Shown: piece by piece, positions 16,991-23,794 of the stretch
Layout: each line of letters opens with the position of its first letter
Numbering within the stretch: the stretch's first letter is position 1
Origin: Bacteroidota bacterium
Lineage (GTDB): Bacteria; Bacteroidota; Bacteroidia; Palsa-965
DNA length: 64,000 nt
Assembly: GCA_013298545.1 (NCBI GenBank)
Contig: JAAFIA010000010.1
Span: 1 to 64,000 of the forward strand
Reading direction: 5' to 3'
Position numbers and translations under genes: made by a program
The notes under the pieces: model-generated
Seen by the model: only the letters and a program-made list of their open reading frames with translations
What the model was told of the DNA's origin: nothing
Database searches by the model: none

Positions 16991-17125
16991 TTTCCTTTTT
17001 TATTCACACCCACTTTTTTTCTACTTATTTTTTGCACGTATTGAAATCTGATTTACTTTAGCAGAACATTTCTAAAACTAAGACTATCGACTAAATCACA
17101 TATTAACATATCGTAATAACGCATT

Positions 17126-17280
17126 GGCGTTAGTGTTGCTTGCTTATCAAAACGGCAAATTTTAACTCAAACAAGGAAACACTAAGCGTCGCGCCGGAAG
17201 GCGTGGGCTTTAGTGTACTTGTTTGAGGGGGCTTTGCCGTCCCTGATAAGCGGTTACTAAAGTACCACGCCGATTTTTTT
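17126..17280 (+). ncRNA. 150-nt nested palindrome with terminal T run
   Basis: Seven nested arm pairs fold the whole stretch into one long interrupted hairpin: GGCGT/ACGCC (17126/17267), GCTTATCA/TGATAAGC (17142/17244), CGGCAAA/TTTGCCG (17153/17233), CTCAAACAAG/CTTGTTTGAG (17166/17218), ACACTAA/TTAGTGT (17179/17210) and CGCC/GGCG (17192/17200), plus a TTAGT/ACTAA pair near the base. It ends in seven T residues on the plus strand. No ORF lies within. It could be a structured RNA with an intrinsic terminator, or a folded DNA site. The class was not recognised. Confidence 0.6.
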
Positions 17281-17483: not shown

Positions 17484-17528
17484 CAAAATAAAAAAACCAT
17501 ATCCACGCAAAATGTACGTGGTATATGG
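17484..17528 (-). terminator. intrinsic terminator of the 22-codon ORF
   Basis: CCATATCCACG (17497-17507) pairs with CGTGGTATATGG (17517-17528) with one bulge. On the minus strand the stem is followed by eight T residues and a further T-rich tract. It lies 34 bp past the stop of the mini-ORF and supports a real transcript there. Confidence 0.75.
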
Positions 17529-17561
17529 ATTTTCACAGGATTAGGACGTACTAAATTACAT

Positions 17562-17630
17562 CTACCAACCACCATTGCCATCAGTACCAATGATACCTAA
17601 TGCTCTTAAAATTGCTTGAATGAGTTCCAT
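17562..17630 (-). CDS. 22-aa peptide ORF with own terminator
   Basis: This ORF is too short for the track. It starts with ATG and encodes a 22-residue peptide: an amphipathic helix (ELIQAILRALG) followed by a Gly-rich end GIIGTDGNGGW. An A-rich leader precedes the start, as in other genes here, and a strong terminator follows 34 bp downstream, so the transcription unit is only about 150 nt. The divergent neighbour starting 107 bp away encodes a 517-aa TPR-like protein. A small peptide next to a TPR protein recalls the RRNPP peptide-receptor systems of Gram-positive bacteria, but no such system is established here. There is no visible export signal. It could also be a toxin or a leader peptide. 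Tentative. Confidence 0.45.
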   Translation of the reverse strand: MELIQAILRALGIIGTDGNGGW

Positions 17631-17736
17631 TTTTCTTTTGTTTTTGGTTTCTACGAATGTCTAAAAACAGTCGATCCAAATTAGGGTACTTTATTCAACA
17701 AAATGGACATTCAAAAATCATTCAAAACCAAACGAT

Positions 17737-19290
17737 ATGACACGACTACAAAACCTACATAAGTTAGTCCACAAGTTAAAGTCGGAAGAAGTTGAAGTAT
17801 GCAGAAGGCTTCTTACTGCTTTTGATCGGAGAGGAATTAAGTTTGATAACAAAGCGGTTAAACTTTTTGAAACGCTGTTAGAAGATCAAACGGGGGAATA
17901 TACGGAGGTGTTCATATCAGAGAAGATATACGGGGGAATAAAAATTACTGCTATTCAAAAATTACAAGTCCGGCTAAAAGCTAAAATTTTGGAAATGCTG
18001 CAAATGGATATAAACATTGAACGTGAAGATACTTACCCTATTAGATTACAAGTCCTTTATTCCATCCGAAAACAACTTAACTACGCTCAAATTCTTCAAG
18101 CCCGTTCAATGACTTCTATGGTGCTGCATCTATACGACGAAATCATACAGCAAGGTGTACGTTACGAATTATGGGAGGAGGTAATAACTGCTGCTCGTTT
18201 TAAGTGTGGACTAGTGGCAATTTCTATGGGCCAAAGCCAATATGAAAAATGTGCTCAATCATGGAAAGAATACAGGCAAATTTATCGCGCTTGTGCATTT
18301 GCTGAAAGTAAATACAACGAGTTGGTTCTCATCACAAATTATAGATCTTGGACTGAAAAAGATTCTATAAGACTTAGAGAAAACATACTGAAATTGATGC
18401 AACTATTCGAGAAAACAAACTCGGCAACTATTGAATATCATTTAAGGCGTTTAGAGGCGCACTATTATCAGCAGCATTATGAGTATCGAAAAGCCGACGA
18501 ATGTTTGCGACGAATAGTAGTTTTAACAAAAGATTTTGATTCTGTTGCAACAAAATCAAGGCATTCTGGGGCATTACTAGATATTGCTCAAAACAATATC
18601 TATTTGCGCGATTTTGAAACTGCTATCTCTAACACATTTACCGGACTTAAATACGTTCCGGCTACTCACAGCACCTCAGTATTTTTTATGGAACTTCAAT
18701 TTTATTGTAATTTCTATTTAGGTCTATATGAAAAGGCGTTAGGTTGTTTGAAAAAAGTCGTGAAACTTACTGAGAACTTTGGTTGGGGTTTTCAAAAAGG
18801 GAAATGGTCTTATCTTATCGCTTGTTGTGAGTTTGCGCTTGGAAACTATCAGCAAGTAGATACAATTTTACTTGCTGTTAATCCGATAGAAAACGACAAA
18901 AATGGGTGGAATCTTGGAGTTCGTTTTTTGTTAATCCTAAGTAATATAGAACGAGAAAAATTTGATGTCGCTAGTAGTAGATTAGAAACTATTCGTAAAC
19001 AAGTAAATCAAAAATCGCATAAAAATCTATCTCCAAGAAATAAAAGAATTATCAGTTTGTTACTTGCTCTTGACAGAAAAAGTTTTCGCTTTTCTGATCT
19101 TACGATCAAACAGCAAAAAGCATTAGCGGACTTGTCAAGTTCTGAAAATAATTTACGTTGGGAAATACTTAGCCCTGAACTAATACTATTTCACGCTTGG
19201 TTAAGTTGCAAAATTGAGAAAGTTCCTTTTCAGCAAAAAACACCAACCATGTTGGTTCGCTCGTCGGAAGCATTAACAATTGCAGTTTAA
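17737..19290 (+). CDS. TPR-like helical repeat protein, 517 aa
   Basis: The protein is entirely helical in pattern, soluble, and without a signal peptide. After an N-terminal helical bundle (1-110, LHKLVHKLKSEEVEVCRRLL), helix pairs spaced about 34-40 residues run from about 115 to 430, with TPR-like features such as YNFYLG-type turns, FYLGLYEKALGCLKKVV and ACCEFALGNYQQVDTILL. The C-terminus is unrecognised. TPR proteins of this size serve as protein or peptide receptors. Neighbours are a divergent 22-codon ORF and, on the same strand, a structured element and a 207-aa HTH protein gene. The codon composition looks more AT-rich than the surrounding host genes, but I did not measure this. Confidence 0.6.
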   Translation: MTRLQNLHKLVHKLKSEEVEVCRRLLTAFDRRGIKFDNKAVKLFETLLEDQTGEYTEVFISEKIYGGIKITAIQKLQVRLKAKILEMLQMDINIEREDTYPIRLQVLYSIRKQLNYAQILQARSMTSMVLHLYDEIIQQGVRYELWEEVITAARFKCGLVAISMGQSQYEKCAQSWKEYRQIYRACAFAESKYNELVLITNYRSWTEKDSIRLRENILKLMQLFEKTNSATIEYHLRRLEAHYYQQHYEYRKADECLRRIVVLTKDFDSVATKSRHSGALLDIAQNNIYLRDFETAISNTFTGLKYVPATHSTSVFFMELQFYCNFYLGLYEKALGCLKKVVKLTENFGWGFQKGKWSYLIACCEFALGNYQQVDTILLAVNPIENDKNGWNLGVRFLLILSNIEREKFDVASSRLETIRKQVNQKSHKNLSPRNKRIISLLLALDRKSFRFSDLTIKQQKALADLSSSENNLRWEILSPELILFHAWLSCKIEKVPFQQKTPTMLVRSSEALTIAV

Positions 19291-19296
19291 GCATTG

Positions 19297-19373
19297 AACA
19301 TCCCCGCCCATAAGGGCCAACGGCATAGGGGTTTGTCTGTTGTGTTTGTAAGTGTATTACAACGGGGGATGTT
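19297..19373. ncRNA. multibranched structured element
   Basis: A long closing stem pairs AACATCCCCG (19297-19306) with CGGGGGATGTT (19363-19373, one bulged G). Inside are three small hairpins: GCCC/GGGC (19306/19314), CAAC/GTTG (19318/19339) and TGTAA/TTACA (19347/19357). The fold is cloverleaf-like but is not a tRNA. There is no T run after it on either strand, so it is not a simple terminator. It lies between the TPR gene and the HTH gene. It may be an RNA element or a mobile palindromic repeat. Confidence 0.5.
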
Positions 19374-19409: not shown

Positions 19410-20033
19410 ATGAAACCTGACGTAATCGAATTGAATAACTTGCTCCAACGGATTCCGATAGAAACATTTCGGTCTTTGAAGTACGCGCAACGTGCGAAGC
19501 CATTTGCATACTTTTTTATCGAATTTGTAAGCAAATCGGGGTTTGATGGCGAAGTGGTTGAAACCCTTATTGCTTTTTCGGTAAGTGGATATAAATTGAA
19601 AAAAACAGCAGCTTTATTAAACCTCGATTTACCAACCCTGAGAAAGAAAATGTTTCGTGCGTTTTCAAAATTAGAGAAAAGAGAACGCGCTTACTTCGCA
19701 TTGCTGCGAAAAAATACAGATTCGATTGAGCATCCGTTAAAAGACACTTTTTTAGCCTTTCTAAAACCAATAAACGAGCATACAGAACTAGGGGACGAAA
19801 TAGTACACATACTTACAAGTAAAGGCATAACAAGTCTTTGGCATCTGAATAAATACACATATTCCAAACTCATCAACTTAGAAATTTTAACACCTAAACA
19901 ATTGGCTACACTTTCCTATTATCTAAACCGAAACCGCTATAACGAGATACTAAATTGGGAAGTCTTAGCGAATTGGTTTGAACAATCGAACCGCCGATTT
20001 ATTGGCGTTACCGACCATGATATGAACTATTGA
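19410..20033 (+). CDS. putative HTH DNA-binding protein, 207 aa
   Basis: Residues about 48-88 resemble a sigma-region-4 or Fis-type HTH: an opening helix VETLIAFSVSGYKL, then KKTAALLNLDLPTLRKKMFRAFSKL. The rest is helical, and a C-terminal part (about 125-180) contains ILTSKGITSLWHLNKYTYSKLINL, which reads like an HhH or RNA-polymerase-alpha-CTD-like bundle. No family can be named with certainty. Its position between a TPR protein and a secreted-protein operon suggests a transcription regulator of the latter. Confidence 0.5.
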   Translation: MKPDVIELNNLLQRIPIETFRSLKYAQRAKPFAYFFIEFVSKSGFDGEVVETLIAFSVSGYKLKKTAALLNLDLPTLRKKMFRAFSKLEKRERAYFALLRKNTDSIEHPLKDTFLAFLKPINEHTELGDEIVHILTSKGITSLWHLNKYTYSKLINLEILTPKQLATLSYYLNRNRYNEILNWEVLANWFEQSNRRFIGVTDHDMNY

Positions 20034-20125: not shown

Positions 20126-20156
20126 TTGACTACGGCTGCGAATTGTAGTACATTTG
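20126..20156 (+). promoter_or_regulatory. promoter TTG-N20-TACATTTG
   Basis: A -33 TTG (20126-20128) and a -7 TACATTTG (20149-20156) with a 20-bp spacer match the Bacteroidota consensus. The start codon GTG at 20174 follows about 11 bp after the expected start site. The ORF-track start at 20126 coincides with the -33 box and so cannot be the true start. The box drives the two-gene secreted-protein operon. Confidence 0.75.
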
Positions 20157-20173
20157 ATTTACTAAGCAATAAC

Positions 20174-21166
20174 GTGAACAAATCCTTTTTCATAGCGTTA
20201 ATTTTTTTCTTGGGCATCGTCGCGAAGACAGAAGCCCAACAAAACCTTGTGTACAATGGGGATTTTGAATTGTATGATACTTGCCCTATTGGCTTTTCAA
20301 GTCCCCCAAACAATCCACAAATTGAGCATTGTTTGGGCTGGACAATGCCGACGTATGCTACTTCCGACTATTTTAATATTTGTAGTGCTTTTCCAGTTAG
20401 TATTCCGATGAATGGTATTAGTTTTCAATATCCACTTAACGGGAACGGATATTGTGGCTTCTTCGCATTCTCTAAAATACTTGATATTAATGGCGGTTAT
20501 TACTGGTGGGAGTATGTGCAAGGCAATCTAACTCAACCTCTCGAAGCGGGTGTAACATATAATTGTTCTTTCTATGTAAGTAATGGCTATACATTTCAAT
20601 TTGCAGTTGATGAGCTTGGTGTGTACTTTTCTTCAAATGCTATTTCTCGTCCCGATCCTTTACCATTCGATGCGTATAGCCCTCAAATAAAATCCCCTGC
20701 CGGAATATATTTAACAGATACTTTGGGATGGACAAAAATTGAGGGTGAGTTTGTGGCACAAGGTGGCGAGCAGTTTATTACAATCGGGTGGTTTAAAGAT
20801 ACTTTGTCAACAGATTATATTTCTCTCGACACAAACTACATTGATATAGGGGCATATTATTTTGTTGATGGAGTTTCTTTAACCGAAGTATCAAGCAAAC
20901 TCGAAGTGCTAAACGTATTTACACCCAATGCCGACGGCATCAATGATAATTTTTCACCGACTTCTGCCTATTTACTGTCGTACAAATGTCAAATTTTCAA
21001 TAGATGGGGAGAACAAGTAGTAGAACTCAATGCCCCAAACCAATATTGGGATGGTACATCAAACGGTAATCCGTGTTCAGATGGTGTTTATTATTATACT
21101 ATTTATGCCATTGGTAACGATGATAAAGTATATGATTTAAAAGGATTTGTTCAGTTGTTGCGCTAA
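20174..21166 (+). CDS. secreted protein with type B T9SS sorting domain, 330 aa
   Basis: The track start (20126) is rejected because it lies in the -33 box. GTG at 20174 gives a normal signal peptide, VNKSFFIALIFFLGIVAKTEAQ. The mature part (about 24-250) is a beta-rich carbohydrate-binding-like region with NLVYNGDFELYDTCP near its start, which resembles N-terminal parts of many Bacteroidota secreted proteins. The C-terminal 85 residues are a type B T9SS (CHU/gliding-motility-associated) sorting domain, with VFTPNADGINDNF, the conserved FNRWGEQV and the final GFVQLLR. It should therefore be exported by T9SS and bound to the cell surface. It is followed 12 bp later by the next gene. Confidence 0.85.
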   Translation: MNKSFFIALIFFLGIVAKTEAQQNLVYNGDFELYDTCPIGFSSPPNNPQIEHCLGWTMPTYATSDYFNICSAFPVSIPMNGISFQYPLNGNGYCGFFAFSKILDINGGYYWWEYVQGNLTQPLEAGVTYNCSFYVSNGYTFQFAVDELGVYFSSNAISRPDPLPFDAYSPQIKSPAGIYLTDTLGWTKIEGEFVAQGGEQFITIGWFKDTLSTDYISLDTNYIDIGAYYFVDGVSLTEVSSKLEVLNVFTPNADGINDNFSPTSAYLLSYKCQIFNRWGEQVVELNAPNQYWDGTSNGNPCSDGVYYYTIYAIGNDDKVYDLKGFVQLLR

Positions 21167-21178
21167 ACAACGAACAAG

Positions 21179-23794
21179 ATGAATAAATATTTAAAAGTTG
21201 TACTACTTGGTCTTGGACTAAGTAGTACAGTTGTGCTACACGCACAACCTGTAATCAACAACCCTGCAAATGCCAATGTTGCTGGAGCAAATAGCTTGCA
21301 GTATTGGTCTAGACAAGGGAATACGAATGCCAATGGCACAAACAACGTATTCGGAACACAAACCAATTACAACGCCCAAGTCTGGTCAATGACCAACGGT
21401 TTTTACCGTATGATGATGAACAACGGCGCGGGGGGCAATGCTGACGGCTATATTGGCATGGGCAATAACCTACCCGCCAATTTCGCCCCCGTAGATCGCT
21501 TGCACTTATATCAATCAGGCGGTACTACCGCTATGCGTTTTACAAACTTTGCAACAGGTCTAACCGCAACCGATGGCCTTCAAGTTGGTGTACTGGCTTT
21601 GGGTGCTGCTGTAATCCGCGATTATGATGCAAGTAGAAACATCCTTATCGGTACAAACAACGGTGGTGTTGGTGTTGCTGATCGCATTAAAGTTTGTTCG
21701 TTTGCAGAAAATGGTTTTGTAGCTATGGGCAATGTCAATGCCTTTGGACAACCTAGATCGCAACTGCACATTATGCAGTATGGCCCAAATATGCAAACTC
21801 CATTGCTACGTGGCGAAATAATTAGAACCGATGGCGAAAATAATATTACAAATGCGTGGCGGTTATATACAGGAATAAACTCGGTTGTAAACTCAGAAAA
21901 GTTTTCTATCCAAGCACCCGCAAATTCAAACAACGGAGAACTATACACCACTAGCGGCGATATGCTTTTCTTTACGGAAAGTGTCAATTTTGGCGATTTA
22001 CAACGTTTGCGTTTAACCAACGGTATTGGAAATCAGTTAGGCGTTCCTCAACAAGACGCAACGCGCGTCAACATTAGTTACGGTTCTGTTTATGGCCCAA
22101 TAACAAATCCAGTTGCCCTACTCAATCTCGGTTTTGATCCACCAGTAGGACCAAACGGCGGGCAACGTGCTTGGATGGACGTAGGCGCGTTTATGTGCGC
22201 GGGTAGTGATAACGTGTATTTAGGCTTGAAAAACGAAGACCCGAACGGAAACTTTGGCCCCAACGGAAATAATGACCGTATGGATGCCGTATTGAATTGG
22301 GGTGATAACACACAAAACCAAAATCCGTTTGGCCCTGATAATTTGCGTTTTATTTTTACAATGGTACAAAATCCGGCTACGGCTACTGGCCCTGCTTCTA
22401 CACAAGGACTTGAAGCAATGCGGATTACTCCAGCAGCAGTAAACGCCAATACATATATGTTTACAGGTATCGGCGGCGATCCACAAACAAACCTTTACGG
22501 CCCTGCACAAAACAGCATCAACCCAACACAAACCGTTGAGGTAAATTCTTATGGCCTTACCAATGCAGCAGGTGGAAGTAGCGGCCTTCGGTTTACAAAT
22601 CTCAACACCACTTCGCCAACTATTGCAAATCCCGGACAAGGTGTACTGGCCGTTGATGCAAACGGCGATGTGGTTTATGTACCTGCTCCAACAGGTGTTT
22701 TGTTTGGTGGTGCTTGCGGTAATCAAAACTTGATGCCTTCGGATTGGGAAATCCCAACAAACGGTTTTAATTATGTATTTACAGGCCAAAGTGTAAACGG
22801 CGATAACGTTGGTATTGGCCTTCCAAATGCAAACTGCGCTCCAATTGCCAAACTAGAAGTGTTGCAACAATCAACCGTAAATAATTCAACAGGCGTTTTT
22901 TCGCGCAACCTTGATAATGATGGCGTTGCCCTTCGTGCGAGTGCTTTAGGTACGGCCTCTGGAACACAAACAAAAGTTGCCGGATGGTTTGAAGCAAGTG
23001 TAGGTTTTGGAAGTCAGCAAGTAGCCATTTACGTTCCGCAATTGGGCGGTGTGGTAAATATCGGCTACCCTACACCAAACTCAGGTCAATTTGCACTATT
23101 GAATGTAAACGGTTCAATCACTTCAAACGGTTTAATTGTTCAAACTTCTGATGCTTCAATCAAAACCAATGTAAATACAATACAAAACGCGGGAAGTATT
23201 ATTGATCGCTTGCGCCCTGTCAGTTACAACTATACCACAGCTTCTATTTCTGATTCTTCGATGGTTGGTTTACACTTTGGTTTGATTGCACAAGAAGTTG
23301 ATACCGTTTTGTCTGAGGTGGTACATACAGACGGCAACGGTTTAAAATCGGTTTCTTATATTGAATTGATGCCTTACCTAATTGCGGCCTATCAAGATGA
23401 ACACCGCCGTAACGATTCATTAGCTGCTGCTTTGTCTGCTTTGACCAATACCGTAAATGGTTGCTGTAACAACAACTCACGCACGGCAAATAATGATCCG
23501 TTGACTATTCGTAACATCGAATTGAATAACAACGCGGTTGTTTTGGAACAAAACATTCCTAATCCGTTCGCCGATCAAACTACAATAACTTACACCATTC
23601 CGGCAGATGCGGGTTTTGCTCAAATTGTGTTTTATGATGCACAGGGAAAAATGATCCGTTTAGTTGATATTACCGAAAAAGGGAAAGGCCAGTTGAATGT
23701 TTTTGCAGGTGATTTGTCAACAGGTATCTACACTTATAGCCTTATTGTTGATGGTAAAGTAATTGATACAAAACGTATGGTTAAAACGAATTAG
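21179..23794 (+). CDS. secreted protein with S74 chaperone domain and type A T9SS tail
   Basis: This 871-aa protein begins with a signal peptide (MNKYLKVVLLGLGLSSTVVLHAQ). A long low-complexity Gly/Asn-rich beta region follows (about 25-640), with features like those of trimeric tail-fibre shafts. Residues about 655-755 form a peptidase S74 intramolecular chaperone domain: TSDASIK holds the Ser657/Lys662 dyad used for autocleavage in phage endosialidases. The C-terminal 80 residues are a type A T9SS sorting domain: NIPNPFADQTTITYTIP, IVFYDAQGKMIR and DGKVIDTKRMV. If S74 cleavage occurs, the sorting domain would be released. It shares an operon with the upstream type B protein and ends at a strong terminator. 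Likely a surface fibre. Confidence 0.85.
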   Translation: MNKYLKVVLLGLGLSSTVVLHAQPVINNPANANVAGANSLQYWSRQGNTNANGTNNVFGTQTNYNAQVWSMTNGFYRMMMNNGAGGNADGYIGMGNNLPANFAPVDRLHLYQSGGTTAMRFTNFATGLTATDGLQVGVLALGAAVIRDYDASRNILIGTNNGGVGVADRIKVCSFAENGFVAMGNVNAFGQPRSQLHIMQYGPNMQTPLLRGEIIRTDGENNITNAWRLYTGINSVVNSEKFSIQAPANSNNGELYTTSGDMLFFTESVNFGDLQRLRLTNGIGNQLGVPQQDATRVNISYGSVYGPITNPVALLNLGFDPPVGPNGGQRAWMDVGAFMCAGSDNVYLGLKNEDPNGNFGPNGNNDRMDAVLNWGDNTQNQNPFGPDNLRFIFTMVQNPATATGPASTQGLEAMRITPAAVNANTYMFTGIGGDPQTNLYGPAQNSINPTQTVEVNSYGLTNAAGGSSGLRFTNLNTTSPTIANPGQGVLAVDANGDVVYVPAPTGVLFGGACGNQNLMPSDWEIPTNGFNYVFTGQSVNGDNVGIGLPNANCAPIAKLEVLQQSTVNNSTGVFSRNLDNDGVALRASALGTASGTQTKVAGWFEASVGFGSQQVAIYVPQLGGVVNIGYPTPNSGQFALLNVNGSITSNGLIVQTSDASIKTNVNTIQNAGSIIDRLRPVSYNYTTASISDSSMVGLHFGLIAQEVDTVLSEVVHTDGNGLKSVSYIELMPYLIAAYQDEHRRNDSLAAALSALTNTVNGCCNNNSRTANNDPLTIRNIELNNNAVVLEQNIPNPFADQTTITYTIPADAGFAQIVFYDAQGKMIRLVDITEKGKGQLNVFAGDLSTGIYTYSLIVDGKVIDTKRMVKTN

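Follow-up and report, generated by a model that had tools for sequence, protein, structure and literature searches.

The window analysed here is a stretch of 64,000 nucleotides from a Bacteroidota bacterium. It carries a gene for a 22-aa peptide precursor, MELIQAILRALGIIGTDGNGGW (17562-17630, minus strand), and a divergent gene for a 517-aa TPR protein, a putative cytoplasmic peptide receptor or regulator (17737-19290, plus strand). The peptide gene has its own intrinsic terminator (17488-17528, minus strand), composed of a hairpin (17497-17528) and a T run (17488-17496). On folding, the terminator segment (17484-17564) reached -24.3 kcal/mol, compared with -11.0 kcal/mol for shuffled sequences (z = -4.6). 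A preliminary description had proposed a mini-ORF with its own terminator divergent from a 517-aa TPR protein; both ORFs and the terminator were confirmed, and the start codons were found to be 106 bp apart. The assignment of the 22-aa ORF as a precursor is based on homologous ORFs that lie divergently to TPR paralogs, both in this genome and elsewhere in the taxonomic order.

No Rfam family was found in the region of the locus. The 200 bp preceding the short-peptide genes contain no Bacteroidota -7 box TAnnTTTG, and of 20 precursors examined, three have this box. Past the peptide terminator lies a long imperfect hairpin (17110-17258; -66.4 kcal/mol, z = -6.8). A similar-looking palindrome occupies the equivalent position at L002, the closest paralog locus, and the flank AAC(T/A)AAGACTATCGACTAAA is common to both. 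This hairpin could be the end of a mobile element or of a cassette.

Receptor, intergenic region and downstream genes

With regard to the TPR protein, its repeat character is only weakly apparent to Pfam (TPR_1, E 0.06). The AlphaFold2 model (pLDDT 87.8) is an all-helical superhelix, whose best structural matches in Foldseek are TPR proteins; the Rap protein of phage phi3T follows at rank 36, a match which shows the predicted fold class only. A C-terminal TPR superhelix, as is typical of RRNPP and RRNPPA receptors, is thus predicted by the model and by Foldseek. It is preceded by a five-helix N-terminal domain (residues 1-89, 17737-18003, plus strand; pLDDT 85.6), which is conserved in the family. 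This domain matched no PDB fold at E <= 0.001, so a known DNA-binding fold at the receptor N-terminus is unsupported and DNA binding by this domain is only suspected. No signal peptide is present, and the protein is presumably located in the cytoplasm.

The 106-bp gap contains a candidate operator pair, made up of GAATGTC (17655-17661) and, inverted relative to it, GACATTC (17706-17712). No other 7-mer is as strongly enriched upstream of the TPR genes of the order, where 20 copies were counted at 10 loci against 1.5 expected; the Poisson p-value of 4e-16 carries no correction for the roughly 6,000 k-mers, and the loci, being related, do not count independently. Two of the six copies in the window form the inverted pair within the gap. 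At four other loci (L060, L062, L063 and L084), TTTGGTCGTTTATCGAAT is conserved between the precursor and the TPR gene, and at L068/L069 this element has turned into an inverted repeat, GTCGTTTATCGATA..TATCGATAAACGAC. Elements of this type are candidate operators in another clade of receptors.

Downstream of the TPR gene lies a gene for a 207-aa protein resembling HTH or sigma-70 region 4 proteins (19410-20033, plus strand), for which BLAST found no paralog in the genome. A gene of 182-207 aa comes next after the TPR gene at all four paralogs that have short peptides. Three of these four gene products match sigma-70 region 4 or HTH weakly (Pfam E 0.02-0.06), and their mutual identity is only 16-20%. 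The four modules share the order peptide, TPR protein, HTH/sigma-4-like protein and secreted proteins. The latter are secreted proteins or lipoproteins, and three modules encode type IX sorting domains or SprB repeats among them. In the window, they comprise a secreted protein with a CHU_C type IX sorting domain (20126-21166, plus strand), to which a homologue from the C123 sister module is 32% identical, and an 871-aa surface protein with an S74-type chaperone domain (21179-23794, plus strand), a candidate output gene. The two TPR paralogs with no recognised partner are followed by unrelated genes. The preliminary description had suggested that, with an HTH protein and a type IX surface operon downstream, the peptide might control adhesion. 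The repetition of the gene order in the sister modules favours surface proteins as the output but does not prove it; the idea is reasonable and is based on gene order. A weaker hairpin (19291-19372; z = -2.2) is located between the stop codon of the TPR gene and the HTH gene, and L002 carries a palindrome in the equivalent gap; it is a possible attenuator or cassette boundary.

Precursor-receptor pairs in the genome and the phylum

Seven TPR paralogs were found in the genome. Four of them have between one and four divergent peptides of 22-24 aa each, all of the form MxxIxxILxxLGIIxPxxxGGx. Besides the window locus, one paralog has MSSIVEILKKLGIIVGETNGGD alone, another has MSNIINTVLQALGIVNPMDGGGKP and MNTINAILAALGIVNPIDIGGKP, and a third has an array of MNAIIELLKKLGIIINPENGGE, MSTIIEILKALGIINPDNTGGG, MSIITVILKALGIINPENTGNG and a more diverged fourth copy. 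Two further tiny putative ORFs, ME(A/V)IEMHIITGTTEGGD and MEGHIITGDSDGL, are common to the distal ends of the L005/L014 and L011 arrays and belong to a recent duplication. A fifth paralog has a different partner, a Sec-signal-bearing protein of 100 aa which ends in VLDGQIVGHDDIPL, and no recognised partner is present at the remaining two of the seven. When the whole genome was searched with a peptide HMM, eight matches were obtained (seven with E <= 2.8e-9, one with E 0.0026), all of which were divergent from TPR paralogs, and the single background match elsewhere had an E-value of 0.16. As the strong matches are all divergent from TPR paralogs, the pairing of peptide and TPR protein in this genome is not due to chance.

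Relatives in other genomes were sought from the side of the receptor, because the peptides are too variable for a strict peptide HMM: across 297 genomes of the phylum, such an HMM (A3) found matches in the window's own genome only. A scan of genome contigs with the TPR protein of the window alone found no relative. A broader receptor profile detected the receptor in 45 of 149 genomes of the class, and distant receptor relatives occur elsewhere in the phylum. In other genomes of the 12-genome order, the receptors are accompanied by MVLLVEWLTALGIVGTENTGAGR, MEIITTILQLSGIIGTLTIGASRS and MELILTLLNIVVNTNGDSKSKP. With all partner classes counted, a divergent precursor was found at 57 of 99 distinct TPR genes examined, 16 of the 57 having been admitted on visual judgement and not on a score. 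No recognised partner was found at the other 42, which counts against peptide signalling.

When ORFs were scored with a matrix covering residues 1-15, which had been trained on the same loci, there were 36 high-scoring ORFs among 939 divergent upstream candidates and none among 971 codirectional ones, with four to six more matches elsewhere in the loci, not all of which are explained. A precursor profile was also run against the 149 class genomes, and all 20 matches below 1e-15 were divergent from, and close to, a TPR gene; given that twelve of the sequences in the profile originate from these same TPR loci, the informative part of this search is that there were no strong matches elsewhere. 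The small propeptide gene adjoining the receptor gene, another feature of RRNPP and RRNPPA systems, is therefore found here as well. The secreted partner class is a single family (leave-one-out E 2e-4 to 1e-23), and the members found in this way were all divergent from a TPR gene. The partner class tracks the receptor clade, with 24 changes compared with 42.7 after shuffling, on a receptor tree that has many long branches. None of the Pfam or NCBIfam models covers the precursors. Conservation of the ORF-TPR pair, whose failure the preliminary description had named as a refutation, held within the genome, the order and the class.

Some observations relate to the mobility of these loci. A phage origin was ruled against, as no matches were found in phage records. 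A receptor homologue is located on plasmid NZ_CP053909.1 of Hymenobacter sp. BRD128 (L149, 4001-5533), directly before a tyrosine recombinase gene, and no precursor was recognised upstream of it. The peptide-TPR system may travel on mobile elements. At L093, four or more almost identical ORFs like MDTKNIKLREPCAFLVSLVVNIF form an array downstream of the TPR gene on the opposite strand; this is perhaps just repetitive DNA.

Precursor architecture and known peptide systems

Translation of the small ORFs is shown in relatives by their substitution patterns. Tandem and orthologous precursor copies gave dN/dS values of 0.13 and 0.19 (overall range 0.00-0.19), compared with 0.6 to 5 for off-frame controls. 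At one locus, four precursor copies encode an identical 29-aa protein, and each of the 28 differences between pairs of copies falls at a third position. The precursor copies of these relatives are under purifying selection. Absence of translation of the mini-ORF was the other refutation named in the preliminary description; translation holds for the relatives, from which all of these values come, and is putative for the window copy itself.

Several precursors begin with a hydrophobic stretch, after which a single short unit is repeated in tandem. DIIVDEIAH is present three times in each of two neighbouring precursor genes, with IIVDEIGH in a sister genome; TGAGGWGGD occurs six times in one precursor, in copies that differ synonymously; and FDQTDG occurs five times in another. 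In Hymenobacter citatus, TGSGGWGHSDV is repeated at least 14 times and runs to the contig end, the corresponding unit being TGSGGWGNSDV in H. profundi and GGTGGWVGDIAAV in another relative. Precursors with a single unit, the window's GIIGTDGNGGW included, often show I-I/V-x-x-acidic within about ten residues of the C-terminus, a pattern recognised by eye. The secreted partner class has clear Sec-like N-termini. The short precursors of the window type have no classical signal peptide, which makes their export uncertain.

Peptide quorum sensing through cytoplasmic TPR receptors has been described as a trait of Firmicutes (PMC9765709, PMC10075063). In the Rgg/SHP systems of streptococci, the gene of a hydrophobic 22-23-aa precursor is divergent from that of a cytoplasmic TPR-type receptor (PMC13361665), which matches the window pair in size and layout. 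However, no sequence relation was found between the receptors, the window receptor has no recognised canonical HTH, the phyla differ, and the Rgg system exports its peptide by PptAB. With regard to Rap/Phr and other RRNPPA systems, the likeness lies in a propeptide that adjoins a TPR receptor and in multi-copy precursors, since some Phr precursors of Bacillota contain several pheromone copies, up to eight (PMC11343458). The Rap protein of phi3T is also among the Foldseek matches, but this likeness is one of general TPR fold only, and no HMM match to RRNPPA chains was obtained. A profile of 29 receptors searched against all PDB sequences retrieved generic TPR proteins and no RRNPPA chain, and no receptor matched the RRNPP families of Pfam or NCBIfam. 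The FxSxx-COOH system (NCBIfam NF040586) likewise ties a TPR protein to a small peptide, and one of the 29 family proteins matched this model marginally (E 0.0039). Because the receptors do not show homology to those of RRNPP systems, the system should be regarded as an RRNPP analogue and not filed as RRNPP; analogy of layout and architecture is the best reading. The RRNPP-like arrangement of small peptide and TPR receptor that was noted at the outset is consequently borne out as an analogy, which the tandem-copy precursors strengthen, and not by sequence.

A putative peptide-signalling family in Bacteroidota

The best explanation, to which we assign a probability of roughly 70%, is that the locus belongs to a Bacteroidota-wide family of peptide-signalling modules, in which an exported precursor, a peptide that re-enters cells and a TPR receptor would lead to a change in transcription. 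This explanation draws on the conserved pairing, selection on the coding sequence, the multi-copy precursors, the predicted receptor fold, the enriched intergenic motif and the recurring gene order. The small gene would encode a precursor whose N-terminal part is hydrophobic and whose C-terminus holds a short signal; in the window, this signal probably lies within GIIGTDGNGGW. The precursor would be exported and then trimmed, and the mature peptide would re-enter cells and bind in the groove of the TPR protein, which is presumably cytoplasmic and is the product of the divergent gene. Either this receptor or the HTH protein from the gene that follows may then alter transcription from the shared intergenic operator, and possibly that of the downstream surface-protein genes. 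What speaks against a pheromone is that, in a diderm, the peptide must pass the outer membrane, and no route is known here. The restriction of the selection data to relatives, the receptor's N-terminal domain without a recognised DNA-binding fold and the short precursors without a classical signal peptide weigh on the same side.

Part of the evidence could be accommodated by a peptide that acts only inside the producing cell, either as a co-regulator of the TPR protein or as a monitor of secretion capacity, for which unexported precursor would accumulate and bind the receptor, with no cell-to-cell signalling. The window-type peptides have no classical signal sequence, a signal peptide is absent from the presumably cytoplasmic TPR protein, and the modules precede type IX cargo, the export of which the cell might gauge. 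Nevertheless, another partner class bears clear Sec-like N-termini, and the identical, spacer-separated units of the multi-copy precursors fit release, so that we consider this explanation improbable.

Two further explanations are even less probable. Lined up in tandem and equipped with terminators of their own, the small hydrophobic peptides resemble small toxin arrays, and the ORFs might accordingly encode membrane-active toxins or bacteriocin-like peptides, with the TPR protein as regulator or immunity factor. Yet many precursors are hydrophilic past the N-terminus, hydrophilic repeats of short units with a conserved C-terminal unit are ill-suited to pore formers, and the constant partner is a TPR superhelix rather than a membrane immunity protein; a toxin function is therefore very unlikely. 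The leader and repeated core of the precursors would also suit substrates of a RiPP pathway, a modified natural product for which the TPR protein would be regulator or scaffold. This appears the least likely of all, as no recognisable modifying enzyme was seen among the neighbours examined downstream of the genome's four short-peptide loci, which are HTH and secreted proteins.

Returning to peptide signalling, the precursor/receptor pairs apparently form a large and undescribed family across Bacteroidota, and they look like the cell-to-cell peptide signalling that has so far been described mainly in Gram-positive bacteria. The library of published open-access papers that was searched yielded no earlier account of such a system in Bacteroidota. 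On balance, we favour the broader view that Bacteroidota possess a genetically encoded peptide pheromone system that spans the phylum and relies on receptors of a separate family, without sequence relation to RRNPP, with precursors ranging from a minimal 22 aa to multi-copy polyproteins, and that in some lineages it controls type IX-secreted surface proteins. A direct test is possible, as many-copy precursors of an obvious candidate signal are present in named Hymenobacter strains. If this reading is true, it would constitute a second, independent and widespread TPR-receptor peptide system, in the diderm Bacteroidota. It would raise the questions of how these abundant bacteria communicate and how peptides traverse two membranes, and surface adhesins and type IX cargo might be under population control.
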